A DNA stretch of 64,000 bases from Mycoplasmataceae bacterium. Lineage in GTDB: Bacteria > Bacillota_I > Bacilli_A > Mycoplasmatales > Mycoplasmoidaceae. The stretch spans positions 1-64,000 of the forward strand of contig JAITDD010000014.1 of NCBI GenBank assembly GCA_031282725.1, read 5' to 3'. The notes beneath the pieces are model-generated. The model searched no databases. It saw only the letters and a list, made by a program, of their open reading frames with translations, and was not told the origin of the DNA. The position numbers were made by a program, and so were the translations under genes. Shown piece by piece: positions 3-63,556 of this stretch (within the stretch, counting starts at the first letter, position 1; the number at the start of each line of letters is the position of its first letter).

Positions 3-500
3 TTAAACAGTTCATCTTACTTGAAGAAGCCAAAAGACTTTAAAGAGATTTTTTCTAAGTCAATAATCTATAACACATTGATGGCCGGAATTTGAATCTC
101 GATTATTTCGATTGTTGGATATATTATCGGGACTGCTTGTTTTGATAATAAATATGCCGGAATGTCGATCGCTTTTGTCACATTATCCTTTTCTCAAACC
201 GTGCATGCTTTTAATATGCAAAGTAATACTGTTTCAATGTTTAGTAGACAAAACAAGTTTAATAAGTGAATTCCGATTCTTTCTCTATCATCCTTATTAA
301 TCGTGGTTTGTATGATTATTGCTGCTTATTATGGTGGTTCAATTACAAGTACGATTTTAGGAATTGATACTGACTTTGCTTGATGAGTCTGACCAATTAT
401 TATTGTCTTTGGGATTACTATTATTCCTTTCTTAGAAGTTTTAAAGTTTTTTGAAAGAAGAAGTATAAAAAAGAATGAGGAAAGAAACCAAAGGGTATAA
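3..500 (+). CDS. Cation-transporting P-type ATPase, C-terminal part (gene runs off the left edge)
   Basis: The last 165 codons of a membrane ATPase are present; the start and catalytic domains lie outside the window. Read with TGA as Trp, the chain shows membrane helices around GIWISIISIVGYIIG, the family-typical stretch MSIAFVTLSFSQTVHAFNMQ, then two more helices (SLLIVVCMIIAAYYGG and WVWPIIIVFGITIIPF) and a short basic tail. The SFSQ-HAFN pattern in the second-last group of helices is typical of the C-terminal domain of Ca2+-type (PacL/YloB-like) P-type ATPases, so calcium export is the likely role. Which ion is moved cannot be decided from this part. The gene converges on speE, with only 16 bases between the two stop codons. 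Confidence 0.85.
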
Positions 501-516
501 AAATAGGTAGGAGTTT

Positions 517-1398
517 TTACTTACTTTTCTCTAAGATATCAATCACATAGTTAGGCAAAGCGAAAGCACCTATATGAACATTTGTATTGTAATATTGAGT
601 TTTAATCTTTAAATCATTTCATTTAGCGATATTTTTGTTTATAGGGTCGATGTCACTTTTAGAGGCAAAATTATACATTCAGTGTCCAGAAGAATAGGTA
701 GGAATATAAGCTTGATACATTCAGTTTTTAAAAAAGTATTTTTTAAGGTAATGGAAGGTTTTTAAGGCGACTTTTTTAGTGACGTCATAGTATAAAGATT
801 CTCCCTGACAAACAAACAAACCTTTTTTATCTAAGATTCTGTTGCAGTTTTTATAAAAAGCATCAGTGAATAAGGCTTTGCCAGTGTCAGTAGGATCTGT
901 TGAATCGCAGATGATAAGGTCGTAGTTTTTGCCATTATAATCTTTTACTCACTTGATCCCGTCAATATGCATTAAATTAACTCTTTTATCTGATAAGGAA
1001 ATAGCAACTTGGGGGAAATATTTTTTTGAGATTTCGCAAACTCTTTCATCTATTTCAATCATGTCAATATGCTTAATTGTTTTGTATTTACACAACTCAC
1101 GAACTACTCCGCCATCTCCAGCTCCGATAACAAGAACATTTTCGATTTTCGGATTTATCGCTAATGAGACATGAACCATCATTTCATGGTATATAAATTC
1201 ATCTTTGTCCGCAACTTGTAATCAATCGTCTAATGCAAAGAAAGTACCAAAGGTTTGCGACTCATATACTTTTAAATCTTGGAATTTAGTTTTTTCTTGA
1301 TGAATAAGTTTAGCATCAATAACTCATCTAGTATCACAAGCTTGAACATCGACATATTGAACTAGTTTTGTGGTTGGAGAAGAAATAGGTTTTTTCAT
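517..1398 (-). CDS. speE: Spermidine synthase (polyamine aminopropyltransferase)
   Basis: The 293-residue protein has the normal length for SpeE. This enzyme moves an aminopropyl group from decarboxylated S-adenosylmethionine to putrescine in the cytosol. Visible motifs are the nucleotide-binding VLVIGAGDGGVVREL (residues about 92-106), MIEIDERVCE just after it, and the catalytic loop ICDSTDPTDTG, followed by GLFVCQGESLYY. It lies 13 bases after speD. A TATAAT box overlaps the speD stop codon and sits 12 bases before this ATG, so speE may have its own leaderless promoter as well as read-through from speD. A related aminopropyltransferase with another acceptor cannot be excluded. Polyamine synthesis is unusual in Mollicutes, which normally import polyamines. 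Confidence 0.9.
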
Positions 1399-1411
1399 GT
1401 CTTTATTTTTA

Positions 1412-2191
1412 TTATACAGTCGATTTGACTTGAGCGATTTCATTAATTTCTTTTCTGATTGCTTTTAAAACTTCTTTCATTTGTACTTTTTTCTCCAATT
1501 GCTTTTCGGTATTATTAAAGAAATATTGACTTGGATCGAATTCTTTGATTACAAGTTTGCACATTCATAGATTTTCATCGGCATAATTTTTATCATAAAC
1601 AGTATAATTGTTCAAATATTTTTTATGAATAAAACTTTGGATCGGTTTTGGTTTGTGATCAATGAAAATTTTTTTGTTTTTACTAGTTCTTGTAAATCCA
1701 CGAACGAAATAGTCAATTTGAATAACATCAGCGCAATAGTTTTTACTAAATTTTTCTAAAAGATAGTTAATAGATTTTAAAGGAGAAATGATTCCACAAG
1801 TAGATATGTGGACATCAACTCGAATAGTGGATATATTAGTTTTTTTTGAATATTCTGGGTATGTATGAATGGCGATATGACTTTTATCTAGATGTCCTAA
1901 ATTACATGTGCGGTCTACTTGTTCTTCTTTTAAAGGTTCTTCAGTAATCAAAATATTAACACTCGAACCCATCGGCTCATAATCTTGTTTGGAAATGTTT
2001 AAAAGATTAGCTCCAATTTTTTTTGTAACAGATCTCAAAATCTTAACTAATTTTTCTGAATCATATTGACGGTGAAGATAATTATCGCAAGTTATTTTAT
2101 CTTCCGGCAATGCATAGTTTACATCAAAAAAACTGATGATTAAATTCTTCGATAAGTTGTTGAAATTGTGTAGTTTTATTTTCCTTCCCAT
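1412..2191 (-). CDS. speD: S-adenosylmethionine decarboxylase proenzyme, E. coli type
   Basis: The 259-residue protein is close in length to E. coli SpeD (about 264) and much longer than the 120-130 residue Bacillus/archaeal form. It makes decarboxylated SAM, the aminopropyl donor used by SpeE, which is encoded directly downstream. The self-cleavage site is in GHLDKSHIAIHTYPE, where Ser104 would become the pyruvoyl group; other family stretches are VHISTCGIISPLKSINYLL and IDYFVRGFTR. The start is fixed by TATAAT ending 10 bases upstream and no ribosome binding site. No ornithine or arginine decarboxylase is in the window, so putrescine must come from elsewhere or be imported. The resemblance to the enterobacterial class suggests horizontal acquisition, which is inference. 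Confidence 0.93.
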
Positions 2192-2288
2192 ATACCAAAT
2201 AATTATATCAAATTTGTGTTTATTTTATAAAAAAATAAAGGCAGGAAAATGAAGTAGAAATTTGGTGATATAAAACGAAATGTTTTGA

Positions 2289-3176
2289 ATGAATTTAATT
2301 GATATTTTAATCGATAAAAAATATTATTGAGAGTTTGCAACATTGCTTTCTGGAAGGTACATCTCTTTTGAAATCTCTACTTTATCATTCAATGAATTTA
2401 TCAATTTTAGAAAAGAAAATAATTTCACCGATAAAGATTTATTAAACAAATATATTCAAATTGGGGGATTTCCTTTATTTTCCACAATAGAATATGACGA
2501 TGAACAAGTTGAAATATTATTAAATGACTTGCATCGTTCGGTCGTTATTACTGATGTTGTTTCCCAATATAAAATTACAAATGTTTCTTTATTAGAACGA
2601 ATAATATTGTTTGTTTACAATAATATCGGAAATATTTTTTCTGCCAGAAAAATAGCTGATTTTCTTTTAAGTAATAATAAGGAGAAAACAAATGTTTCTA
2701 AAATTAATGAATATTTAACTTATCTTGAAAATGTATTCGCTATTAGAAAAGTTAAAAGATACAATATAGATGGAAAAAAATTAGAAACTAACTGCAAATA
2801 TTATTTATCCGACCACAGTTTGCAATATGCGGTTGGCAAATTTCAAAAAACAAAACTTCCAGGAATTTTAGAAAATATCGTTTTTAATGAATTAATAAGA
2901 AGAGGATATAAAGTGTTTGTGGAGAAGCTTAATGAAAGAGATAACAGAGAAATAGATTTTATTACAGAAAAGAGTGCAAGTAACGAGAGAATATATATTC
3001 GGGTTTGCAAAGAATTTAATTCACAATAGACTATTAAAAGAGAATTTGACGTATTATTAGAAATAAAGGATAATTTTCCCAAGTATGTAATTGCCATAGA
3101 CGAATATTGGCAAGAATCTGCATGTGTCATTAAAAGCATTCGTTTGAAAGATTTTTTATTACGTGAGAAGTTTTAG
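2289..3176 (+). pseudogene. DUF4143-type AAA ATPase, 5' truncated and interrupted by TAG
   Basis: This is the C-terminal two thirds of a DUF4143/AAA_14 ATPase. The first in-frame ATG is at 2289 and the family resemblance begins only at LLSGRYISFEISTLSF, the stretch containing the conserved GR arginine. The P-loop and Walker B domains are missing. Family landmarks that remain are CKYYLSDHSLQYAV and NREIDFITEK-IYIRVCKEF. A TAG at 3027-3029 then interrupts the frame, and about 48 further codons (TIKREFDVLLEIKDNF to LLREKF) continue to a TAG at 3174-3176. Compared with the intact relatives at 7.5 and 28.4 kb, this copy has lost its start, ATPase core and continuity, so it is most likely dead. Confidence 0.8.
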
Positions 3177-7503: not shown

Positions 7504-8727
7504 TTAAAGTGTTGTTTCTCCTTTTAATCATTTTAATAAAAAAATAATTTTTACACCATTATCTTTTTTTGGAACATTCATTGCGTTTGTGATTATTATT
7601 TTCGTTGTTACGTTTTTAGCTTTTTCTAATATATGATATTCTCGATTTACATTTTCCTTATTGATTTGATCACTAACTTGAATATATAGTTTTTCATCGC
7701 CGGATATTGCAATAAAATCAATAGTGTTTTCACCTTTTTCATTTCCAGTAACAACTTCGTATCCCAATGATAATAATTGCAATAAGACAAGGTTTTCCAA
7801 TCGATAGCCTCTTAAATAATGAGTATCAAAACCAATAACAGAAGATAGAATACCTAAATCGCCTGCATAGTACATACTGCTATACTTCAAAGTTTTCAAA
7901 CCTTTAACATTGTAAAAAGGTATGCGTTGCAACAATTGGGAATCACATATTCATTCAATGTAATTTAAAATAGTTTTAATTCCGACGTTTTGTTCTTTTA
8001 AATATTTCTCCAAATTTATCGAATTAACATTTCTTCCAATATGTTCAAAACAATATGTTACAATATTATTGAACAAGGTAATATCCTTTTTAATTTTGTG
8101 TTTAAAAACAATATCTCTATTTATAGTGTCGAAAATTATTTTCTTTAAATTTTCAATTGTTTTTTTATCATCATAATATGTATCCAATGTTATTCCTAAT
8201 CCTCCATAAACCAAGTATCTTTGCAAAAATTGTTCATCAGTTTCATCTTTTTTTTTAATATTTTCATAAATTTCTTTAAAACTTAATGGAAAGATTTTAA
8301 GTTCACTAGTTCTGCCAGTGAATAATGTGGCATTTTTTTTCGAAAACATCGCTGAATTTGAACCGGTGATATAAATATCAAATTGTTTTTCTTTATTCTC
8401 AAACAGGGTGATGATTGTATCTTCGAAATTAGGAATGTCTTGAATTTCATCCAAAAAAACATAAGTCGTGTGTTGTTTATCGCCTTTTTCTTCTATGTAT
8501 TCTATTAATGATTCTCAATTGTGTTTTTTTCTAAGTCTAGCATCATTAAAATCCATATATATGATTCGATCAGCATCCACCATAAATTTTGTTTTAAGTT
8601 GATTAATAAATTGAATTAACATCGTTGATTTTCCACATCTTCTAATACCGGTTAAAACTTTAATAAACCTCGAATCCTTCTCTTTTTCTAACCATTCGAG
8701 ATATTTTGTTCTAATTATTTCGTTAAT
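7504..8727 (-). CDS. DUF4143-type AAA (AAA_14) ATPase, complete domain set, no standard start codon
   Basis: 407 codons cover the complete two-domain protein. The ATPase has Walker A KVLTGIRRCGKSTML, Walker B VFLDEIQDIP, the sensor-like YITGSNSAMFS and the arginine-bearing FTGRTSELKIFPLSF. The C-terminal DUF4143 domain has YYAGDLGILS, RLENLVLLQLL and TIDFIAISGDEKLYIQV, which may be a nuclease-like fold. Its role in the cell is not established. No ATG, GTG or TTG exists before the Walker A motif. An ATT lies 6 bases after TATAAT, exactly where the related gene at 28366-29556 has ATG. Alternatively, a 31-codon ORF at 8735-8830 lies one frame off and could be the true N-terminus after slippage in A8 or T7 runs. 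It may be expressed, phase-variable or recently inactivated. Confidence 0.75.
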
Positions 8728-8733
8728 GAATAA

Positions 8734-8771
8734 ATTATATCCAAAAAAATGCTAAATTGGCTTTTTTTTGG
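8734..8771 (-). promoter_or_regulatory. -10 box with abutting inverted repeat, DUF4143 gene promoter
   Basis: On the coding strand, TATAAT lies 6 bases before the presumed ATT start. One base further upstream begins an inverted repeat with arms CCAAAAAAA and TTTTTTTGG (8741-8771, 9-base arms). The same layout, with different sequence, is found at the 29556 gene, which suggests an operator over the -35 region. It could also act as a hairpin. Confidence 0.5.
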
Positions 8772-9021: not shown

Positions 9022-12000
9022 TTAGTTTTTACTTCCTTTTTTTGTTTTTGTTTCGACAGTGGCTGCTATTTTGTTTATTTTTTGTTTTTTTAAAGCAATA
9101 GCTGCAATTGTTGTTGAAACGATAAATAAAGCTCCTAAAACACCAACTAAGATAAATGCGATAGTGATTTTTTTCTCATCGGAAGATATTTTGTTAGAAT
9201 CAGTATCATCTTCAATAATGAAATCACCGGATTTATCAACATCTTTCTTAATTTCTCAAACTGAACTGTTTAAACCTTTAAAATCAGCGATTGTTACACT
9301 TGAGTCTTTCGGAACATGTACATATAGTTTTTGAGTTGACGAATTATTGGACGAATCGTTAAAACTTTGTTGATTTATTATGGAGGCATTATCGGCCATT
9401 AATCCACCAAAAGCATTTGTCCCGATATAAATATTGGCAGGATCAGCTTTTTCTCAATTAACAATGATGGTTGTGATAAATTCCAAATTAGCAAAAGCAT
9501 CTTTTTCAATTCTAGAGATTTCATCAAATATTTGTAATTTACCATTTAACCCGTCACAGTTGTAAAAAACTTGTTCACCAATAGTTTTCAAATGTTTTGG
9601 CAGAATAATGTTTCCTGTTAATAATGGACAATTATAAAAAGCTCTATTACCTAAGTGTAACAAATTTTTAGGAAGATTTAATTGACCTTTTATTTTTGTA
9701 CAGCTGTAGAATGCATTTAAATCAATTGAAGTAATTGAAACAGGAAGAGTTATTTCTTGATCCAATCCTGAACAGCCATTAAATGTGTTTGGATAAATTT
9801 CTGTTAAGTTTGTTTTTGTTAAATCAATATGTGTTAGTTTAGAACATTCATAAAATGCACCTTGTCCTAAATAAGATAAATTATGGAAATTAATTTTGCC
9901 AGCTAAATTTAAACATTCACCAAAAGCTCCATCACCAATTGATAGGATATTTTCGGGTAAATTTATTCCCGTTAATGCCCGACAGTTTTTAAAAGCAGAA
10001 ATTCCAATAGTTGTTAATGAGTTTGGAAAAGTAATAGGGTTGGTTAAATATTGACAATTTTCAAAAGCATATTCATCAATAGAAGTTAAATTAATACTTT
10101 GTGAAAAATCAATTCCAGTAATATTTGTATCTTTAAAAGCATTCGCTCCTATTTCTTGCATATTTGAAAGTAATCGGATTGAAGTTGATGCAAGAGTAGA
10201 ACCTTCAAATGTATGCGGGGCTATTCTAACAATCTTGTAATCTTTAGAATCGTTTGCTACTGTTTGTGGGATACTAATTGGGTTAGTGCCGGCAGGAGTA
10301 TATGTCGTCGAACCATCTACTTTTGCAATTTCACATGTTAGAGCAATCTCATCTAAAATATTGATTTTAAAATTTGGATTGGAAGAAAAAACTGAAGCAC
10401 CAAACAAAGTATCTGTGGCGACAGTAAATGAAGTGGTGGTGTCAATAACTTGTCATGAAGCTGGGGATAAATTCAAACTGGCAGGAATAATTGTTGTGGT
10501 ACAATTGGTGATTATTCGGTTTTTGCTTCCACCACCACCACTAGGAGCAGTTGTATCTCATAAATCAAATGCACTGGGAATAATACTTTTTGTGTTAATG
10601 GAATTTCATTGGTTTAAATATAGAGTTTTCACGTTGTGCATGTTGTAAAAAGCATGGATTCTAATTGTGTTTACAGTTGAAGGGATAAAAACCGAAGAGA
10701 AATTAACACATTCAGAGAAACAGGCATCTTCAATAGTTGTGATTGAATGTGGAATAATTAAATCTCCTGAAAATAGGGTTCCTCGAAATGCATACACTTT
10801 AATATCTACTAGCGATTCTGGTAAAGTTAATGTTGATGTGCTTCCCATTTGTGTAGAATCATTAAAAGTCTGATCAAATGAATATCCGCCGATTATTTTC
10901 ATTCCATTAGGGATAGTTAAAGAACCACTAAAATGAGTGTTTCGGAATGAAGCTCGTCCTAGTTCTTCAATGTTAAAAGGTTCATTGGCATTACCGACAT
11001 GAACAAAAGAAAGAGTTCTTGTACCGCCGCCTACGTTCGCAATATTAGCGAAACCATTTTGCACAATACGTTTGACGATGTAAAGTTTACCTCCATAATT
11101 TATCGTGTCGTGGATTATTAAAGATGTTCCTATTGTTGTTGTGGTGTTTAAATCGGCAGAGTTTTCATTTTCGGAAGAAGAGCTTGGATAACCCATTGCT
11201 CCGATTTTTACATTATTTTCATCTTCAATATCAACATACAGCCCACCACTTGTTAATCCTCAGGAAGAAATACTAGTATCGTTTCATGGAATGGTAAAAA
11301 ATGTTTGATGATATGTGGCGAATGAAATTGTGGAATCTGGATATGGATTGGGTTGTCTATGTCAATTATCAAATGAAGAATTATTTCGAAACCATTCTAA
11401 ATTAAAAGAAGAATTTTGCGGCAATTCTAACATGATTCGAAAATCATAATAACCCTTATTAAAATTTGAATTAGTTTCATAAGTTAAAAAACTGCTTGAG
11501 TCAAATATTCTACCGTCGAAGGTATAATCAGTTGTGTTACCTGATAAATTAAAAACAACTTTAAAATCAACGGTTTTATGTTCAGTTGAAGTAGAACCAC
11601 GATATGGTCCATCATATTGCGGTCGAGGTTGAATAATATTACTTCCATAATGATTGCCGGTAACAGAATTAATTTCTGGGTGTCCAAAATCAAATGTTTC
11701 AAAAAAATAAGGAGATCAACTACGAAAGGCATTTTCTTCAACTACTCTAATTTTATTTAACGAAATTTTAGCTGTTGGTGAAAGATTATTTGGAACAACC
11801 GACATAAAAGCACACGTACCAATTCAAAGCAATTTATCAGGAAAAATAAAATCAGAATTGTCAAAATCTATATGAGATGATTCAAAAAAATGTTTAAATA
11901 TCTTAATTATCGAACATTTTGATGAAAATTTAAGTTTGAATTCGTATCCAGGACTGCTAAATCTATCGCTTAATATATTAGGTTCGATCGGTTCATTAAA

Positions 12001-12460
12001 TTGATCAAATGATTCATTCATCCCAATTCCATAAACAGGTAATGCTGTTCCACCATTTATGGAAATCTTTGAATCAGTTTCTGTGCTTCCTCCCAAAATT
12101 AATGTGTTGTTTAAAAACGGAGCGTCTGCACTATTTTCAAGTCTAGTTGGAACCAAAATATATCCAGGACCAGTTTGGGTTGAAGAACCTGCGGTTGGAG
12201 TTGTGCTGTAAATATCAAATGTTCAATGTTGCGAAAACCCCCAAGTTGATAAATTTGTAATATTTGCGGTTGTATATGTACCTACTTTACTACCAACAGG
12301 AAGGAAATCGGTTGCATATGAATTAACTATTGAATTATCATATTTAGAATCTAATTGTGATGGGGGGGGGGGTGGATTTTTGCATTGAGTAAGAAATTAC
12401 AATAGGTGTGATTGCGATGGCGGAACATGCAAACAATATTGATATTTTAGTTATTTTCAT
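9022..12460 (-). CDS. BspA-like leucine-rich-repeat surface protein, frame closed by a G11 tract (phase-OFF)
   Basis: A 1145-residue protein if one base is removed from the homopolymer at 12362-12372; as written, the frame stops 35 codons in. It starts MKITKISILFACSAIAITPI (signal/anchor), then the C tract encodes a few prolines. A Thr/Ser-rich domain of about 450 residues follows, then BspA-type repeats such as IGANAFKDTNITGIDF, IDEYAFENCQYLTNPI and LGQGAFYECSKLTHID. Near the C-terminus is a single membrane helix, ITIAFILVGVLGALFIVS, with a basic tail, so the protein would be anchored with its repeats outside. BspA repeats commonly mediate adhesion to host or protist cells. TATAAT ends 11 bases before the ATG. 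An 11-base G run at the start of such a gene is the classic arrangement for phase variation; an assembly error is the other explanation. Confidence 0.85.
12362..12372 (+). repeat. Homopolymer tract G11 (C11 on the coding strand)
   Basis: Eleven consecutive G lie 31 codons into the BspA-like gene. Counting from the ATG at 12460, ten C keep the downstream frame open to the stop at 9022. Eleven (as here) give a TAA five codons after the tract, and twelve give TAG. Confidence 0.9.
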
Positions 12461-19787: not shown

Positions 19788-22700
19788 TTATTCAACAAGA
19801 CCGGGTGATGTAACCATTTTAAATGAAGAATCAGGAAGGTATAAAGAGTATCTGATATCCGGTTTATTGTTACGATAATTACCAATACGAGGTCCTAAGA
19901 TTTTAGGGTATGGTGCATCTTGGGTATACATTTGATCGAAAATAGTTTTATTGATATAAACACTAATCAATCCACTAGCTTTCTTAGGGAATAGGAAGTA
20001 AGTGTGTCCATCATCTGTTACATTATCGCCACTTTTTTTTGAAGCACTTCAATTATCACTAGAATAATAATTAACATAGATATTAGAATATCCGGAAGTG
20101 TCTATGGGGTAATTACCTAAATCGTAGTTAGCGTCCAAGAATTTAAAATTTAAGAAAGCATCTGTTTTTTCAGTAGGTTCAGCTTCAGCCAAATTAGTAC
20201 CAATATCAGACACGGCCTTCAAATTGACAGTGGTTAAATCAGTACATCCAAAGAAACAAGCGGTATATTTTGTTCCTGTATGATCGTAAGGGTCTAATGC
20301 GGCATGTTTTGCGGCCTTATCTGCATCAGATCCAGTAGTAGCATCAGCTTTGTCAATAACATATCCAGTACCACTATTCAAAGCAGTAAGAGTGGAGCAA
20401 AGTTCCACTGTTTTAATCTTGGATTGATTAGAGAAAGAGTTGGATTGGATTAAAGTGACATTTTTAGGAACAGATAGGGTGTTGGTGCTTTGGAAGGCTA
20501 GGGGTTTTTTGGTAAGAATGGTGGTTCCAGAACCTTCCACACTACTATAATTAGCATTCAAAGCATCCTGAGCAACATTCACAACGTCGGTAAAGAGATT
20601 TGATGATGAAACAGCAGTGGTAGCGTATGAACTAACAACACCATAGTTCACCAATACTTTTTCGGCAGAAGAGGAGTTTTTGCTGTTATTAGTATAATCA
20701 CCAGGAAAGATAGTGAATCGGTAAACAGAAGTATCAATACCAGTTACTCCTTCACATTTCACAAATTCATCAAAGACTTTGTTGGTAATTTCTGTGTTAC
20801 CAACAGAAGCACCACCATTTGACAATTCAGCATTAGGGGCTACAGTTCTTCCTTGGGTGAAATCAACAAGAATTTCTTTTGTATTGAATTTGGAGAAATT
20901 TATTGGACAAGTACACTGACCAGATATTATAGCATTAGTTTCGCCTCCTTTGTTATTAGAAAAGAAGTTGGCGTTTCTTAAATCAACACATGTGTCAGGA
21001 AGTTGAAGATTAATAACAGGAACACCAGTTGTATCTGAAGTATAGATGTAATTGAAACTGTCGTTGACACTTCCATAGATTCCTCTTACCAAAAGCTTCT
21101 TACCACCTTCTGTAGCAATATATTTTGGGATTTTGATGAGGTTGTTGTCTGAAACAGAGCTACCATTTTCAGAGTAGGATTTATTCAATTTTAATGCACC
21201 CAAATAGATATTGGTACAATCATGGAATCCGTCTTCTAAGAAAGATTGGGGTTTTAGATAAGAAACATTGGCACCAGTTTTTGAAGTTGAAGAATTCTTT
21301 GTTAAAACAGTGGAAGAAGAGTCAGTTCCTGGGAAAGGTTTAGATTTATCAGTTTCATGATAATCGGAAGAGGCATATAAGGAAGAGTCTCATAATATTT
21401 TGGCAGTACCATCAAGGGTTGCAGCAGTAAAAGCTTCAGTTGTTAATGGTGTTACTAGTTTATTGTATGTATCAGTTTTTTTAACATCAACAGGTAATTG
21501 GCCAGTAGAATAATAATTTTGCGATTTGATGTCAGGGATGATATATACAGCTTCAGAATCAACAAGGTATATAGTACCAGTATTCTTTAATTCTTTTCAT
21601 AACTTATCATTCATTGTCTCACTTGGGAATAGTTTATTGTTTAAATCTTTTGTTTCTTTTAAAGCAGAAAGGAATTCGTCAATATAGTTGTTTGCTTCTT
21701 TTGGGGTGATGGTAATGGTGGTGCCACCTACATCATAAGCAATATTCATATCTCTTCAGAAAAGACCATAGGAGGTAGCGGAACCGTTAGATACTGTTGC
21801 ATATAAAGGTCAAGCTAATTCACCAACATTAGAGGTTTTGAAATCACTAAAATCATTACCAATATCATCTCTTGAAGACACTTGGAAATCAAGTCTAAAG
21901 ATTAAAGGGAAGAAAGCATCACTTCCTGGTCAGCATAGGTAGATAGTTGTGTTGTTAATAAGGAAGTCAGGAGTTCATGAAATAGTGAAAGCTAATTTGT
22001 AAGCATATTCACTACCGGTTTCGCCAAGAGAAGTCATTGCAGTTGACAATGTGAAAATGGTTGTTTCAATATCAGTCATTTGTTTTGTTACAGAATCGGC
22101 AGTATATAGTTTGAAACCGTAGTTATCTACACCACTGTCGGTAGTGGTAGGACCGTTTTGAGTAGGAATAATGATACTAGGGCTAGTTTCTTTAGTAATT
22201 ACTGTTTCAGGTTTTTCCATTTTCAAAACTTTGTAATTCTTTTCACTTACTGGAACGTTAGACGCATCTCCTAAAAAGAAATTGGAATAGGTAAGAGTGT
22301 TTTCGGGGACTGTATAGGATAAACTAGCTTTTTCTGCCCTAAGGGTGATAGTTGTTTGTATTGGTTTGTAGTTATTGGTATCTGTGTAAGTAGTGTCATT
22401 ACGAATAGCTGGGGTAAGGATCAGGTTGAAGCTAATGGAGGAGTTTACAGGCATACATTTTCCACTAGAAGATTTTGTTCGGAATGATATTTCGGCGTAG
22501 GAATAATAATTACTACTAGTTTCATGGGAATTAGTAAAAGTAATAAAATTTGTATAGTAGTAATCTCCAGAGCTAGCAGTATCCAACCCTTCAAATCCGT
22601 TATATGTTACTTGGCCAATAGAATAATTACCAGTTTTATATCAATCGTTGAATACTTTTGAATCATATCCTCCGGCAGTATAATATTCAGTTTTTGTAGA

Positions 22701-25700
22701 AGCTTGAGCATAGTCCATAGTAATGGAAGTGTTAGATGTAGCAGTAGGAGTGGTTTTAGCATTATCACTAGAACTGTATATTCCAACATAAGTATCTTCT
22801 TTTGGTATTACAGTAATGGTATATGTTACTTCAACTGAATTATATCCTGGAAGGGTACATGATAAATGCACATCATATGACCCTACTGGAAGGTATTCGT
22901 AAGGATCGGGATCATTTTGTTGTGGTGCACCTAGTGCTTGGGGTTGGAGATGTTCACTATACTTCTGCAGAGTAAGATATATTTCGATCTTTGAAGTATA
23001 GATGGAGTTGATTTTGAAGTAATCGGAAATATTGTGATCAGTACCAACGGTTGTTGTATTATTATCATCATGTATATTCGCACTCGTTATTTTTCAATTA
23101 AGGGCATTTCCATCAGTATATGTATACCCCTGAGCATCAACACTGGCAGCTAATAAGGAAACTCCTGTAAGCTCATATGTAGTTGATGTGGAAGAACCTT
23201 TAGGATCACCAATTAGTTTTAAAGAACCTTCATATATGTTTCCTGTAACATAAAATCATAGTTTGGCATTAGTGTCAGTAGAACCATCAAAGCTTAACTG
23301 GATAGCGATGTGATCGTATTCGGATTGAATATCTCCTGTTTTAAGGGGAGTTTTTTTTGGATCAAATTTTAAACATAAACCAAGAGGGGTGGATCCAGTG
23401 GAATCGTATTCTAAAGAGAAAGGGGAAGTGGTTGTACCACTTGAATAAGGTTCAAAGGAGAATGTAGTAGATCCCCCTTCACCACTAACTGCTTTATAAG
23501 TTCCTAGAGAAATGGTTATGTTAGATGAGGCTTGACCACCACTAGAACCATTTCCGATAGTTCCTTTAATTTCGAAAGGGTTAACTGGATCTTGGGGAGA
23601 ATTTGTGAAAGCGGTTTTGATAAGTTTGCCTTCTCCATTTTTGTGATAAAGAGTTAGAGGAGATTTTTTCTCTTCTTTAATCGAGATATTTCCCAAGTTA
23701 GTTCCCATAATGACATTAGGTTTCGCTTTTAAAGGGTTAATTGTAATAGGGTAGTATTTTTCTTCGTGGTTATCAAGTGAAGCAACAAGAGTAACAACGA
23801 AAGAGTTTGTTCCTGGTACTAAATCTTGACTAATATCATCTCTAGCAAATATATCAGGAATGAAATAAGTAGCGTTTGAGAAACCAATACGGAAACTTGA
23901 TACTAATCCTGTAATATTACCGGATGCATCAATGGTTCCACTTGTTCTTGCTGGAAAAGAAGAATCAGTATTTCCCTCAGTATTTACTTGAAGCTTTTCA
24001 AAGATTTCGAGTGGACATTTAGTAGTACTTGTTACTAATACACCATTCTCATCAACTGCTTTATTTTCCAATCTAAGGTTCATTACTTGATATCCATTAT
24101 CAGAAACACAACCAGAATAGATTCCTAACGGTTCTTGGATTTCACCTTCTGATGCTGTTCCTGTATTAGAAGAAGCATAGTTTACTCCAGAATAAGGTAC
24201 TAGAGTAGTAGGTCCTACAAGAGTGGAAGAATCTAAAGGGGTTACTTTTACTAATATCTTTTTAGGAGCAGAAGGGTTGTAACTAGATTCGTCATCAGCC
24301 ACTGCACTTGTTGCTTTAAGTTGGATTTGGAAAGAATAGGTTCCTACTTCTGGGAAAGTAACACCAAGAGGGGATTTCATTTTTACCACTGCTTCATATG
24401 CTTTGGTTCCAGTTTCTGTTGCAAAGAAACTAACGGTGGGTATTTTGTCATCATGGGTTATTATGGTGTAATCAGTTTTTGTGTCTAAATCTGTAACAGT
24501 GGCAAGGACAAAAGAAGTGTTGGCTGCAATATCAGGGGATAGGGTGGAAGGAGATCCTGAAACAGCCTCAGTATTAAAGTCTTTGATTACAATGGTACCA
24601 TCGTCTGTTATTGCAGCATGGGCATAGACGTTTTTTTCTGAATTATAGTTAAATTTCAAATAGGCATTAGGGATGTTTTTTAAAAGGGTAGCGTTGTTAC
24701 TTGCATCATTATAATAAGCCTCATTGTTAACTAAAGTATAAGGAGGAACAGTGTATAAGTCTAGATATGTAGAAAAATCAGGTTCACCGCCAGAGGAAGT
24801 GTTCACAAATTCATATTTTAATTGGGGAATAGTAGTGTTGGAGTATAAGGAGGAGAAAGTATGTTGAACAGTATTATCTCCATATTTTACATAAATTTCA
24901 TCACTACCTGTAATAGTAGGAAGATCAGCACCTTTAACATTGATTGTAATATCCTTTACTGCATCCTCAAACCCTGGAATACAATAGGAGATAGATACAT
25001 TATACACACCAGAAGGAACAAAGGCAGCATCATTGGTACCTCAGGAGTAAGTACCACTTCCAGTTACTTTTGACGGGTCAGCTCATCATAAATAGACATC
25101 AGAGACGGAGTCATTCTGGCCTTTTGATAAAGGGGCACCATCTTTCAGTCCTAAATATATCTTTTTGGCAGAAACACCTGATTTTTCGCCTACCACAGTG
25201 ATGGAATAAGGATCTCTGTTCTCGCCAAATTGTTGACCTTTTTCATTTGTATATCTTAAATCTCAATGTCCATTAGGATAAACAGATGTAACGGAATATA
25301 AGTGTTCATCTTGAAGGGTTTTGACTGGACCAGAATTACTAGTGTAACCAACAGCCTCTAAAGCTTTATAGTCATATCCGAAAGAACTTAAACCGGTTCC
25401 GATGATTCGGTTATTGGAGTTTTTAACGAATTTAACTTTAAGATTGTAATAAGAAGGGAAATAGTTAGTGGCAGAAGCGGTGATGGTGTAGTTATATTCA
25501 TCAAGAAGAGTGGAAGATAAGGCAACTCAAGCATCTTCATTATCAACAATTTCGAAGTCAGTACAATTTGGTTCTGTGTGGGCCATAAAGTCATTGGTAA
25601 TATGATAAGAACCGTTTAAAGAGTTAACGTCTGTTTTTGTGATTTCAATAGATTGGATTTTGTGAGTTAATCCCCCTTCCAATGAATCTCCTAACATAAA

Positions 25701-26879
25701 AGTACCATCCACTGACATGTTGTCATTGTCTATCTTAACAGCATGGAAAGGGTAAGTAGTACTAGTACTAACAGCAGAAGGTAATTCAGCATCAGTTACA
25801 ATAGCATTTGTTTCATTAGGGGTAATAGTGGTTGGTCCTATTGTGAAATATCCTGTGTCTGGGTTTATCTTAGCATCAATTTGTTTATAGGCATCACTAT
25901 TGGCGTCTTCTTGATTGGAAGGGGTTACACTTCATTTAACAGAAGGCATTGAGTAATTATCAGGATTGGATTTGGTGTCAAAAGAGAAAGGAATACCAGA
26001 GGAAGAACCAAAGGAAGCGTTAAGGATTACATCTTTCTTCGGTTGGGTTTTTGCATCTTCACTTTCTTTTGTTTTGATTACGATGTATGAAAGGTTTTGA
26101 TCGTTTGCTGTTCATCCTGGTTGGGTTATTTTGATAGTGTAATAATTGGGGTTGGTTGAGTCAGAACCTGAACTATTAGTATAGTAAGCTGCGTCTTGAA
26201 GATTGGTAACTTTGACTGAATTGGCTGTAATTTTTCAAGAGGAGGCATCATAAGTAAGGCCTAAAGTACCTTGCAATTCAACACCGTTCTTGTTAGTGGC
26301 GATGAATTTTATATTATTTTGAGCACCAGAAAGTGTTGCAGAGTTGGTTCATGTTTGAGAAGTAGTAGGCACTTCATATTGCAAATTAGTGGTAATGTAT
26401 TTGTTATTTGCAACAATTTGCGGAATAACGTTTTGATAGACATTGAAAAGAACTTGTTTTTGAATTATGTGTCTAGAACCATGTTGGATGTAGTTAGCAT
26501 TTAATGTTACTTTGTGAGTTCCTACAGGGGTGTGTTGATTAATTTGTAAAGTAATTTGGCCTTCGTTATCATCTTGACCATCCGATTGAGTTGATATTCC
26601 GATGTTTCCGTTGTAACAGTCTTGTCCAATAACGGTGAATTTTAGTTCTGATACAGCATCACTATCATCAGAACTTGGGTTAAAGAAAGTAAAGCTGGCT
26701 GTGGAAACACTACCATATTTTGCGTAGATATAATTCTTTCCTTCTATAGTGCATCCTTGTTCTTCTGCAAGATTCATGTTTTTTGAGAAGGCGGCACCAA
26801 TGGTAATTGTGGCAATTGCAACAGTACATAAAGCACCAAACAATATAGTAGACAGCTTAAACTTAGTACCCTTGTTCAT
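19788..26879 (-). CDS. Giant surface protein, 2363 residues, Ig-like and BspA-like segments
   Basis: A single open frame spans 7.1 kb once TGA is read as Trp. MNKGTKFKLSTILFGALCTV and AIATITIGAAFSKN form a signal or N-terminal anchor. What follows is a very long Ser/Thr/Asp-rich extracellular chain with recurring beta-type segments of about 100 residues, such as VSISYCIPGFEDAVKDITIN and LSCTLPGYNSVEVTYTITVI, which look like Ig/cadherin-like repeats. Towards the C-terminus there are BspA-like leucine-rich pieces (LIQSNSFSNQSKIKTVELCS, CFFGCTDLTTVNLKAV). There is no C-terminal membrane helix, so it is held by the N-terminus or secreted. An adhesin or coat role is inference. TATAAT ends 10 bases before the ATG. 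Its stop is 3 bases from pyrG. Confidence 0.85.
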
Positions 26880-27063
26880 TGTTGTATATATTATATACAC
26901 TAACAGGGGTAATTTGGTGAAAGATTTTAGAAGGAAAGAGGGGTAAGGAGTGTTAATGTGTTTTTTTGCAACCTTTATATATAGAGAGAAGGGATTGGAA
27001 GAAAGAAAAGAGGCGAATAAAAAGAGATCTTAAAAGATAATACTTTCGTTTGCTTAGAATTTA

Positions 27064-28365: not shown

Positions 28366-29556
28366 CTACAAACTAATCTTATCGCTTAGCCAGTCTTCTA
28401 GAATAATTATTGAGATTCCATCGGTATTTTTCGGAATTTCAATTTTGTTACAAATAATAACTTTTTTAAAATTGTTTTTAACAGACAATAAACTTCTTGA
28501 CTCTCTTGAATAATTCTCTTGCGTTAAAATGTCGCAAACCTGAATGTATACGAAATCATCATCTTTTTCACAAATAAAGTCTATCTCTTGTTTATTAACT
28601 GGGTTTTCATATGTGTAGACTTCATAACCTAAAAATTGTAAATGTAATAAGACCAAATTTTCAAGTCTAATTCCTTTTAAAAAATTCAAATCAAAAGAAA
28701 TATTCGTTGATAATATTCCCAAATCCGTAGCATAGTATTTATTTTTTAATAATAGTTTCTTTTTCCCAACAATATCATAATATTTAATTTTTTGCAATAA
28801 GAAAACTTGTGTTAATCAATCGAAGTATTTTATGATTGTATCTTTGGAGACATTTTGTTCTTTATTACTTTTTAAATATTTTTCTAGATTAGAGGCAGAT
28901 ATTCGTTTCCCAATATGAGAAAAAACATAATTAACGATACTATTGAAGCTTTCAATGTTTTTGATTTTGTGTCTTGACTTGATATCACGGAATATGGTGT
29001 CATTAAAAACTTTTTTTAGTCATTTCTTTATTTCTTCTTCTTTGTCATAAACGCCGTAAACAATTCCTAAACCCCCATATTTTAAATATTTTGTTAAATC
29101 TAAATTGTTTTTGTTTTCTTTCAATTCTTTATATGTTAATGGAAAGACCTGGATTTCGCTTGTTCTTCCTGTCATAAGTGTCGCCAATTCTTTGGAAAAC
29201 ATGTGAGAGTTACTGCCTGTGATAAATATGTCAAATTTGATTTTTTTATTTTCGAAAAGACCAATGACGCATTTTTCGAACTCTTTAACTTCTTGAACTT
29301 CATCCAAGAAAACATAATTAATTTTATTAGATAGGGATTGCTTAATAATGATATTGTAAAGTTCTTTGGCGTTTAAGGAAGCCAAATTAGGATCGTTAAA
29401 ATTAAACTCAATAACATTTTCTTTTATTAATGTTTTTTTATATTGTTCTAAAATAGTAGACTTTCCGATTCTTCTAATTCCAGTTAATACTTTTATTGAG
29501 TTATTGCTCTTTTGTGAATTTAATCAATTGATGTAATGCTTTCGAATAATCTCCAT
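28366..29556 (-). CDS. DUF4143-type AAA (AAA_14) ATPase, intact
   Basis: The 396-residue protein is the best-preserved family member here. It has MEIIRKHYINWL, Walker A KVLTGIRRIGKSTILEQY, Walker B VFLDEVQEVKEFE, FITGSNSHMFSKELATLM and TGRTSEIQVFPLTYKE with the conserved arginine. A helical winged region (HIGKRISASNLEKYLKSNKE) follows, then the DUF4143 domain with KYYATDLGILS, RLENLVLLHLQFLGYEVYTY and QEIDFICEKDDDFVYIQVC. The last motif resembles the acidic core of PD-(D/E)xK folds. The cellular role of this widespread family is not known. TATAAT ends 6 bases before the ATG and is preceded by a 10-base inverted repeat. Confidence 0.88.
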
Positions 29557-29562
29557 ATTAAA

Positions 29563-29602
29563 ATTATAAGTCGACAAAAATTAAAAAATCGTTTTTTGTC
29601 GA
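29563..29602 (-). promoter_or_regulatory. -10 box with abutting inverted repeat, DUF4143 gene promoter
   Basis: The TATAAT on the minus strand (29568-29563) is preceded after 2 bases by a perfect 10-base inverted repeat, TCGACAAAAA (29571-29580) and TTTTTGTCGA (29593-29602). The position matches that of a different inverted repeat at the 8727 gene. An operator for a dimeric repressor, perhaps the gene product itself, is the simplest reading. Confidence 0.55.
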
Positions 29603-29771: not shown

Positions 29772-31058
29772 TTAATTATTTATTTTAGTCTTTCCTAACA
29801 AAAAATCAGATAAAATTAGTATCTTTATTCCTTGCGTTGAAGAAACACTTATGGAATTTGTAATGATATATTTGTCGTATGCGTCTTTTACGCTTAATAG
29901 GTTTGTAGATTCGCGAGTAAAGTTTTTATCGTTTAACACATCGCAAACTTGAATATATTTGATTTCATTATCTTTTTTTATTACAAAATCTATTTCATGT
30001 TTCGCTTCATTTTCTGCAGTATATACTTCATATCTTTCTTCCAACAATTTTAAAAGTACTGCATTTTCTAATCGATAACGTTTGTTGAATCCGATATTAG
30101 AAGATGTTTTTAATGTCAGCATTCCCAAATCAGTAGCGTAGTATTTAACTTTTGTTTTCATTATTTGTTTACCTCTAATATCGTAATATTTGACTTTATA
30201 AAATAAGAAAGCATCACACATTCAACTGAAGTAGTTAATGATGGTGTTTTTGCTAATTTTTGGTCCAATCACAAATCGAGTGGAATTAATTTTTATTTCT
30301 TTATTAGAAACCATGTAATTTTCCAAATTATTAGCAGAAATTTTTCTTCCTATGTTATTAAACAGATATTCACAAAGCTTTTCTAAAACTTCGAAATATC
30401 TTATTGAGTGTCTTGTTTTAATGTAATTTTTAACACAACTCGAATAAATTTTAAACAAAGCTTTTTTAACAGAATCGAAATTTTTGTATTCAGGAATAAC
30501 TAACCCAATACCACCCTGCATTAAATATTTTTCAAAGTTTTCTTCATTATTCTTAAAATTTTTCAAAAAGGTACATATTTCTTTGTAATCGAAAGGGAAA
30601 ACTTGAATTTCACTAACTCTTCCAGAAAATAATGTTAATAGTTCTGTTGAAAACATTTTGGAATTAGAACCTGTAATGTAGATGTCGTATTTAAAGTTTT
30701 TGTGGCTGTACAACGTAATTATTGCTTTTTCAAATTCTTTAATTTCTTGGACTTCATCTAAAAAAACATAATTAACTTCATTGGGTTCGCTTTTGCTTTC
30801 GACATATTCTATTAGTTTTCTTCAATCAAATTGTTCAACTAACCTTGCATCATTAAAATCCATGTCGATTGTATTTGAAGAATCAAATAATTTGCGATAT
30901 TGATTTAAGATCGTGGTTTTTCCAACTCTTCTTATTCCGGTTATTACTTTAATATAGTTTGTATCTTTTCCACTCTTTAACCATTTTAAGTATTTTTCTC
31001 TGATAAATTCCTGTTTTTCCGGATTTTGTTGAGTTCTATCTCGGAAAAAAGTATGGTT
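29772..31058 (-). pseudogene. DUF4143-type AAA ATPase, start codon lost
   Basis: The frame is open for 428 codons after an in-frame TAA at 31059-31061 and contains the whole domain set: EFIREKYLKWL, Walker A KVITGIRRVGKTTILNQY, Walker B VFLDEVQEIKEFE, YITGSNSKMFS, FSGRVSEIQVFPFDYKE, KYYATDLGMLTL and KHEIDFVIKKDNEIKYIQV. However, no ATG, GTG, TTG or ATT lies before the Walker A motif, and no TATAAT box is placed as in its relatives. The 5' end coincides with a 19-base direct repeat (31053-31071). It was probably functional until the promoter and start were displaced. It ends at a strong terminator. Confidence 0.7.
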
Positions 31059-61997: not shown

Positions 61998-63296
61998 TTA
62001 TAAACACAAAAATTCTAAAGGGACAATTCATACATCATCCTCGATATGTAAAAAAGAACCAGTACCAACAATAATCATACAGAATTTTGGTTGTTTAAAT
62101 CCACCTTTTTCCATTTTCTGTTTAAATAGTTTTATATTTTTTATTCCTTTTTCTACACAATCTGTTCCAGTTTTAATTTCAATAGCCGCATATTCGCCAT
62201 CATCTAATTCTAATATGCAATCAATTTCTAGATTAGAATTATCTCGATAATGAAATAATTGACCATTTAAAACATTAGCATATACTAACAAATCTCGCAG
62301 AGCCAAGTTTTCAAAGAAAAAACCAAAGAGGTTAAGATCAGAGATAAATTTTTCACTTGTCAAATTCATAGCCGCACATGCTAAAGAAGGGTCGATGAGG
62401 ATTTTTTTAGTTAATGATTGAATTCTTACTTTACTTCTTAAATTGGGAACAAAAGAATTTATTTCTACAAAAAGGAACATATCTTTCAATGTTTGAATGT
62501 ATTTCACAAATGTTTTATCACTAATTCCTTTGTAGTGTGTGTTATTTATATCACTGTGCAAAGTAGAATAAGTAACACATGTTGAAATATTCCTTCCAAT
62601 TGATTTTAAAAGAACTTTAAATTTTTCTCTGTCCATTCTTACTCCGCTTTGTTTAAAAATATCTTCTGTTGAAATAGAATCTATGTATCCTTTGTTTTTA
62701 ATCAATGATTCATCGATATTTAAACTAATATTCTCTGGTCAACCCCCACGGATAACTAATGTAATTAAGTCTATTAGTTTATATTTCGAGTGTTTAATTT
62801 CATATTTAGCATCTGGGTTTTTAAACATTTTGCTTAGACTGAATATTTTCTCGTTATTTTCAGATTCTGATAGTGTCATAGGAAACATTTTCATTCGTTC
62901 AATTCTTCCAGCACCACTGTGCGAATGTGTTTTCTTTTTTGGTGAAACAGAACCCGTTAAAATAAAACAACCTTTTTGTCGGGAAAAATTAACTAATGAA
63001 CGTATATCATCCCAAATAGGTTGATATTCTTGTCATTCATCGATTAATTTTGGATAAGGTTCAGATAATAGTGTTTCAGGCTCTATTTTGGCAAGAGAGA
63101 TATTTGAATTCTTTGTTTTTGTATCGGAAAAATCAACCATTGAAGAACTATAAAATATTCCGGTTCATGTTTTTCCACATCATTTTGGGCCTTCAATTAA
63201 AATAGCTTTCGATACTTTTAGCATTTTTAATAAAGTGATGTCGGTTATTCTAGGGATATATTTTTCCTTAACAAATTTAATTTTTTTATCCGACAT
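61998..63296 (-). CDS. DUF4143-type AAA ATPase, divergent subfamily
   Basis: The 432-residue intact protein belongs to the broader COG1373 group rather than the subfamily of the other copies. Walker A is LIEGPKWCGKTWTGIFY, the Walker B region is YPKLIDEWQEYQPIWDDI, the sensor is FILTGSVSPKKK with the following SGAGRIERMKMFPMTLSE, and IRGGWPENISLN is typical of this group. The C-terminal domain has ILIDPSLACAAM, FGFFFENLALRDLLVYAN, NLEIDCILELDDGEYAAIEIK and ends WIVPLEFLCL. Its function is unknown. TATAAT ends 6 bases before the ATG; tandem 23-base repeats and the palindrome TTCCGGAA lie just upstream. Confidence 0.87.
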
Positions 63297-63302
63297 ATTT
63301 AT

Positions 63303-63369
63303 ATTATAATTCCGGAAAACAAATCACAAAATACCGAAATAACAAACGCCAAAATACCGTAATAACAAA
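63303..63369 (-). promoter_or_regulatory. Promoter with TTCCGGAA palindrome and tandem repeats, DUF4143-type gene
   Basis: The minus-strand TATAAT (63308-63303) is preceded by TTCCGGAA (63310-63317). Two copies of CAAAATACCG(A/T)AATAACAAA follow (63327-63346 and 63350-63369, period 23). A further AACAAAT partial unit lies near 63318. It looks like an operator array. The remaining bases up to 63556 show no gene. Confidence 0.6.
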
Positions 63370-63556
63370 TTTGGAAAGTCTAGAATAACACCAACTTTAA
63401 AAGCTTTTTTATCTTGTATGAACTTTGCCAAAATACTTTTTTACGATTTTGTAAAGGTGGTTTTTGCTCATTAATTTTGCATTCTAATTTGTTGATTTTA
63501 AATTTCACAAAAATACAAGAAAAAAAATCGCGACTTTATTTCGTGTATAAAACTTA

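Follow-up and report, generated by a model that had tools for sequence, protein, structure and literature searches.

The window analysed here, a 64,000-nucleotide stretch of mollicute DNA, contains an intact speD-speE gene pair, which is likely to represent a two-gene spermidine module that was acquired horizontally from a Firmicute-type donor and that would act, in this genome (G000), on a diamine taken up or scavenged. Mollicutes are a textbook case of genome reduction accompanied by polyamine import. The original prediction, which had proposed an intact pair on the strength of its motifs and had called spermidine synthesis unusual in this group, was borne out in both respects: the quoted motifs, Ser104, GDGG and DSTDP are all present, and carriers are very few in the order. 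The enzymes themselves are ordinary and already known; it is the unusual host and the partly assembled pathway that make the case interesting. A mollicute lineage which gained and kept spermidine synthesis would show that the pathway can be re-acquired, and would provide a test case for when polyamine synthesis pays in a small genome.

Table 1. Features at the start of the window, with their positions, strands and supporting evidence
Feature	Position	Strand	Evidence
P-type cation ATPase, C-terminal part	3-500	+	Pfam Cation_ATPase_C, E=2e-17; converges on speE
speE, polyamine aminopropyltransferase (spermidine synthase)	517-1398	-	NF002010, PDB matches
speD-speE spacer, 13 nt	1399-1411	-	Sequence
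speD, class 1A S-adenosylmethionine decarboxylase proenzyme, 259 aa	1412-2191	-	TIGR03331 and Pfam AdoMet_dc
Promoter-like TTTATA-18-TATAAT with TG extension	2202-2231	-	10 nt before the speD start codon

Sequence and structural features of the pair

SpeD matches TIGR03331, the E. coli-type family, with E=1.1e-71 and aligns with it end to end (model positions 1-255 of 259), at a score of 241.3 bits that lies slightly below the curated cut-off of 255.8. The earlier description was of an E. coli-type SpeD of about 260 residues. The segments SHIAIHTYPE, STCGIISPLK and IDYFVRGFTR are all found, and the K103-S104 processing site, together with H105, H109, E113 and C132, is invariant in the alignment with the E. 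coli, Klebsiella and Firmicute SpeDs; self-cleavage at K103-S104 is predicted. A sequence search of SpeD against the PDB gave no match at E<=1, and fold comparison was used instead. The AlphaFold model (pLDDT 77) has confident structure matches only among AdoMetDC enzymes, namely those of T. maritima, A. aeolicus and human (Z 10-11.7), the T. maritima enzyme 1vr7 giving Z 11.7 and an rmsd of 2.4 over 114 residues. The modelled structure has the AdoMetDC fold.

For speE, the mechanical open reading frame covers 517-1443 on the minus strand, the frame being open from 1443; translation more likely begins at the ATG at 1398, 13 nt past the speD stop. The protein scores above the cut-offs of both NF002010 (318.6 bits vs 260) and TIGR00417 (263.3 bits vs 249.6), and its sequence matches in the PDB are 1iy9 (E=2.6e-55) and 3o4f. 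SpeE retains the GDGG motif (G93-G96) and the DSTDP aspartates D164 and D167. Its glycine run is GAGDGG, not GGGDGG, a variant also seen in two other Bacilli SpeEs, and the gate loop departs from the usual GPGE. In the SpeE of a congener, G009 (L051:9829-10728), six extra residues follow DSTDP in the gatekeeping loop; these residues are absent in 28 other SpeEs.

The short spacer is consistent with a single transcript for speD and speE. The promoter-like sequence upstream of speD might be considered a candidate promoter, from which the mRNA would be nearly leaderless; it is a weak candidate, since promoter-like sites are no more numerous here than in shuffled sequence. No RNA families were found near speD/speE.

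Several other features were observed in the window. Adjoining speD, a remnant of a DUF4143 ATPase (2280-3175, plus strand) lacks its N-terminal half and is interrupted by an in-frame TAG near 3027, beyond which the reading frame runs on to its natural end. Inspection by eye revealed further DUF4143-type AAA ATPase-like ORFs at 7507-8751, 28369-29580, 29775-31058 and 62001-63440, an apparent expansion inside 64 kb. Very long ORFs are present at 9025-12396 (~1,100 aa) and 19791-27029 (~2,400 aa), the former with a sequence that resembles, again by eye, a leucine-rich-repeat-like surface protein.

Proposed pathway and source of the diamine

The activities of both proteins are assigned by homology, with the intact residues and the fold described above. 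SpeD would cleave itself, forming its pyruvoyl group from Ser104, and would decarboxylate S-adenosylmethionine; SpeE would then move the aminopropyl group of decarboxylated SAM onto a diamine, most likely putrescine, yielding spermidine. Genome searches of G000, which is 75% complete, found no fold-III ODC, no OKR_DC, no agmatine deiminase and no second SpeD. PotA was likewise not found in this partial genome; the best PotA-family matches in G000 and in a second congener, G017, proved on reading to be ABC ATPases beside a large permease. Since no diamine-forming decarboxylase was found, the diamine in G000 is probably acquired, that is, taken up by a putative route or scavenged, and then aminopropylated.

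In G009, both an ODC-type gene and a potABCD-like cluster were found. At the G009 locus (L051:7470-11462, G009:C12), metK (-), ODC (+), speE (-) and speD (+) follow one another on alternating strands; parC-, tyrS- and methionine-transporter-like genes, named by reading and not by family search, lie on the same contig. The ODC, of fold III, shares 50% identity with a lysine/ornithine decarboxylase of Pseudomonas, and the solved structures closest to it are those of lysine/ornithine and ornithine decarboxylases; it appears to be a proteobacterial-type ornithine decarboxylase. The cluster would come close to a full pathway leading from ornithine and methionine to spermidine. It is possible, albeit somewhat doubtful, that de novo synthesis was regained piecewise, first through a Firmicute-type speDE and then through a proteobacterial-type ODC beside metK in G009, freeing at least one member of the genus from polyamine import. 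A clean trade-off between speDE and potABCD within the genus was considered and rejected, since both sets of genes occur in G009 and apparently neither in G002, G004 and G008. Elsewhere in the order, a mollicute of another family (G072) carries a gene of the agmatine-deiminase family that is full-length and contains nine TGA codons in frame (L095, G072:C1:4879-5922).

It is difficult to deduce the acceptor of SpeE from its sequence, because agmatine, too, is aminopropylated by most of the spermidine synthases from bacteria that have been tested (PMC11107197), and putrescine and agmatine cannot be told apart in this way. This bears on the possibility that the pair does not make spermidine at all, SpeD being a neofunctionalised ornithine/arginine decarboxylase or SpeE using agmatine, cadaverine or another amine. 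Such a reading would be in line with the SpeD score just below the family cut-off, with the unusual gate loop and its extension in G009, and with the lack of a putrescine source in the searched part of G000. However, the neofunctionalised SpeDs described to date belong to class 1B, and the search for them was directed at cases lacking the partner SpeE or having an additional SpeD (PMC10407285), whereas the SpeD of the window is of class 1A, occurs as a single copy and lies beside SpeE; moreover, an ODC-like gene adjoins speE in G009. A neofunctionalised SpeD is unlikely, as is a pair that does not produce spermidine, and spermidine synthesis from an acquired diamine is preferred for G000.

Distribution and origin of the pair

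Using a Pfam model that covers both SpeD classes, SpeD was detected in only three (G000, G017 and G009) of the order's 320 genomes, and SpeE in the same 3 of 317, with no others at a meaningful score; the 248 high-quality genomes of the order include no carrier. The carriers are three species of one genus, so that, instead of many mollicute relatives, only two congeners besides G000 have the pair. The literature searched, which covered only a minority of subscription papers, contained no previous description of a mollicute SpeD or SpeE.

In the PheS-PheT tree, the carriers fall inside a 7-genome subclade (100/100), within which their grouping as a clade is rejected (AU p=0.0009). Between G000 and G009, SpeD and SpeE are 46-49% identical and PheT 46%; a divergence so similar to that of PheT is expected of descent with losses. 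Furthermore, a 4-residue insert is common to all three mollicute SpeDs and absent in 32 other SpeDs. Taking this private insert into account, the pair was probably gained once, in the ancestor of the subclade, and then lost in several members. Two separate gains from related donors, or transfer between congeners, may fit the tree as well. The arrangement of the genes also varies: in G017, speD stands alone (L049:9341-10126, G017:C7), divergent from rpsM-rpsK-rpoA, with speE on another contig. The pair is split or moved in this genome, and the operon is consequently not conserved.

The E. coli-type SpeD had been taken earlier as a pointer to gene transfer. Taken by itself, this argument is not supported, since a sample of 395 genomes from the window's own class includes 27 with class 1A SpeD at trusted score (weak matches of about 20 bits are not SpeD), and class 1A SpeD also occurs in Cytobacillus and in the clostridial genus Monoglobus (plasmid-record sequences, 42-45% identity). 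In 13 of the Bacilli class 1A loci, speE directly follows speD, in the same order as in the window. The idea of class 1A SpeD as a mark of enterobacterial origin is thereby corrected. Transfer itself is still the best explanation, supported mainly by the distribution within the order and by the SpeE tree; the most likely source of the horizontally acquired speD1A-speE unit is a lineage of Clostridia or of Bacilli other than mollicutes.

The two protein trees differ in what they say of the donor. In the tree of SpeE, the mollicute trio is a clade with 100/100 support, nested in a wider clade (likewise 100/100) that unites Clostridia with non-mollicute Bacilli. The trio lies nearest to Monoglobus and the Bacilli family f28 (83/86), and the Enterobacteria (E. 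coli/Klebsiella/Stammera) and Priestia fall outside. In the SpeD tree, the mollicutes lie on one side of a branch (96/97), and their long branches leave the donor unsettled from SpeD alone. A grouping of mollicute and enterobacterial SpeDs is not rejected by the AU test (p=0.176), while holding SpeD with Monoglobus and f28 is nearly rejected (p=0.08), so that the precise neighbours seen for SpeE are not reproduced with SpeD. Plasmid records supply most of the named reference taxa, and the sampling of donors is accordingly thin.

Class 1A speD-speE pairs in other families of the same class, together with the branching of the mollicute SpeE trio among such Bacilli sequences, would also be expected if the pair were ancestral in Bacilli and had been lost everywhere in the order except in this genus. 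This vertical retention is rather improbable, because almost all of 50 genera would have to have lost the pair, and the carriers sit deep within one genus, in the 7-genome subclade. A gammaproteobacterial (enterobacterial) donor, to which the class 1A SpeD shared with E. coli and the standing SpeD grouping would lend some support, is quite improbable: the strongly supported placement of SpeE is with Clostridia and Bacilli, its identity is 45-51% to the Firmicutes of its clade vs 37-39% to the Enterobacteria, and the gene order is that of the Bacilli loci and the reverse of the speE-speD order of E. coli. Viral carriage was also considered and set aside, the single viral contig match being an enterobacterial SpeD and the phage matches Salmonella records.

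Horizontal acquisition presupposes that the genes reside in the mollicute. G000 is a MAG of 876 kb in 51 contigs, 74.6% complete and 0.31% contaminated, and the window covers the first 64 kb of contig C20. The host reads TGA as Trp, and all 7 of the 7 Trp codons in speD and speE are TGA; the GC content of the two genes (0.28 and 0.32, respectively) is close to that of the window (0.31). Comparison of G000 with G017 gives pN 0.16 vs pS 0.76 for speD and pN 0.11 vs pS 0.70 for speE, with synonymous sites saturated in both, and the ATPase-speE junction recurs in G017 (locus L050), an independent MAG. Contamination, or a mis-binned contig of another bacterium, which the number of contigs and the position of the pair 517 bp from a contig end might suggest, is very unlikely and deserves almost no credence, in view of these UGA-Trp codons, the local GC, the purifying selection, the ATPase neighbour shared with the second MAG, and the homologues carried amid mollicute core genes by three separate MAGs of one genus.

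Comparison with known polyamine systems

Mycoplasma haemofelis, an example of the usual state in mollicutes, has PotABCD polyamine import and lacks the synthetic enzymes (PMC3196708); it shares with the window's genome its mollicute affiliation and a reduced genome, and differs from it in relying on polyamine import only. The E. coli system resembles that of the window in its class 1A SpeD, which is 41% identical and has the catalytic residues in common. In contrast, its two genes are in reversed order, and its SpeE is only 39% identical and falls in another part of the tree. In Monoglobus pectinilyticus (Clostridia), the cluster reads speD - PLP enzyme - speE - speB, and thus includes an aminotransferase/decarboxylase-like PLP enzyme and an agmatinase, both absent from the mollicute window; as in the window, a class 1A SpeD lies upstream of SpeE on one strand, with identities of 45% for SpeD and 46% for SpeE. 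The loci of other Bacilli families (L006 and L007, family f28) belong to 1.9 Mb genomes, their genes need no TGA as Trp and their SpeDs lack the mollicute insert, but they share with the window the adjacent speD-speE arrangement, a SpeE about 50% identical and the GAGDGG variant.
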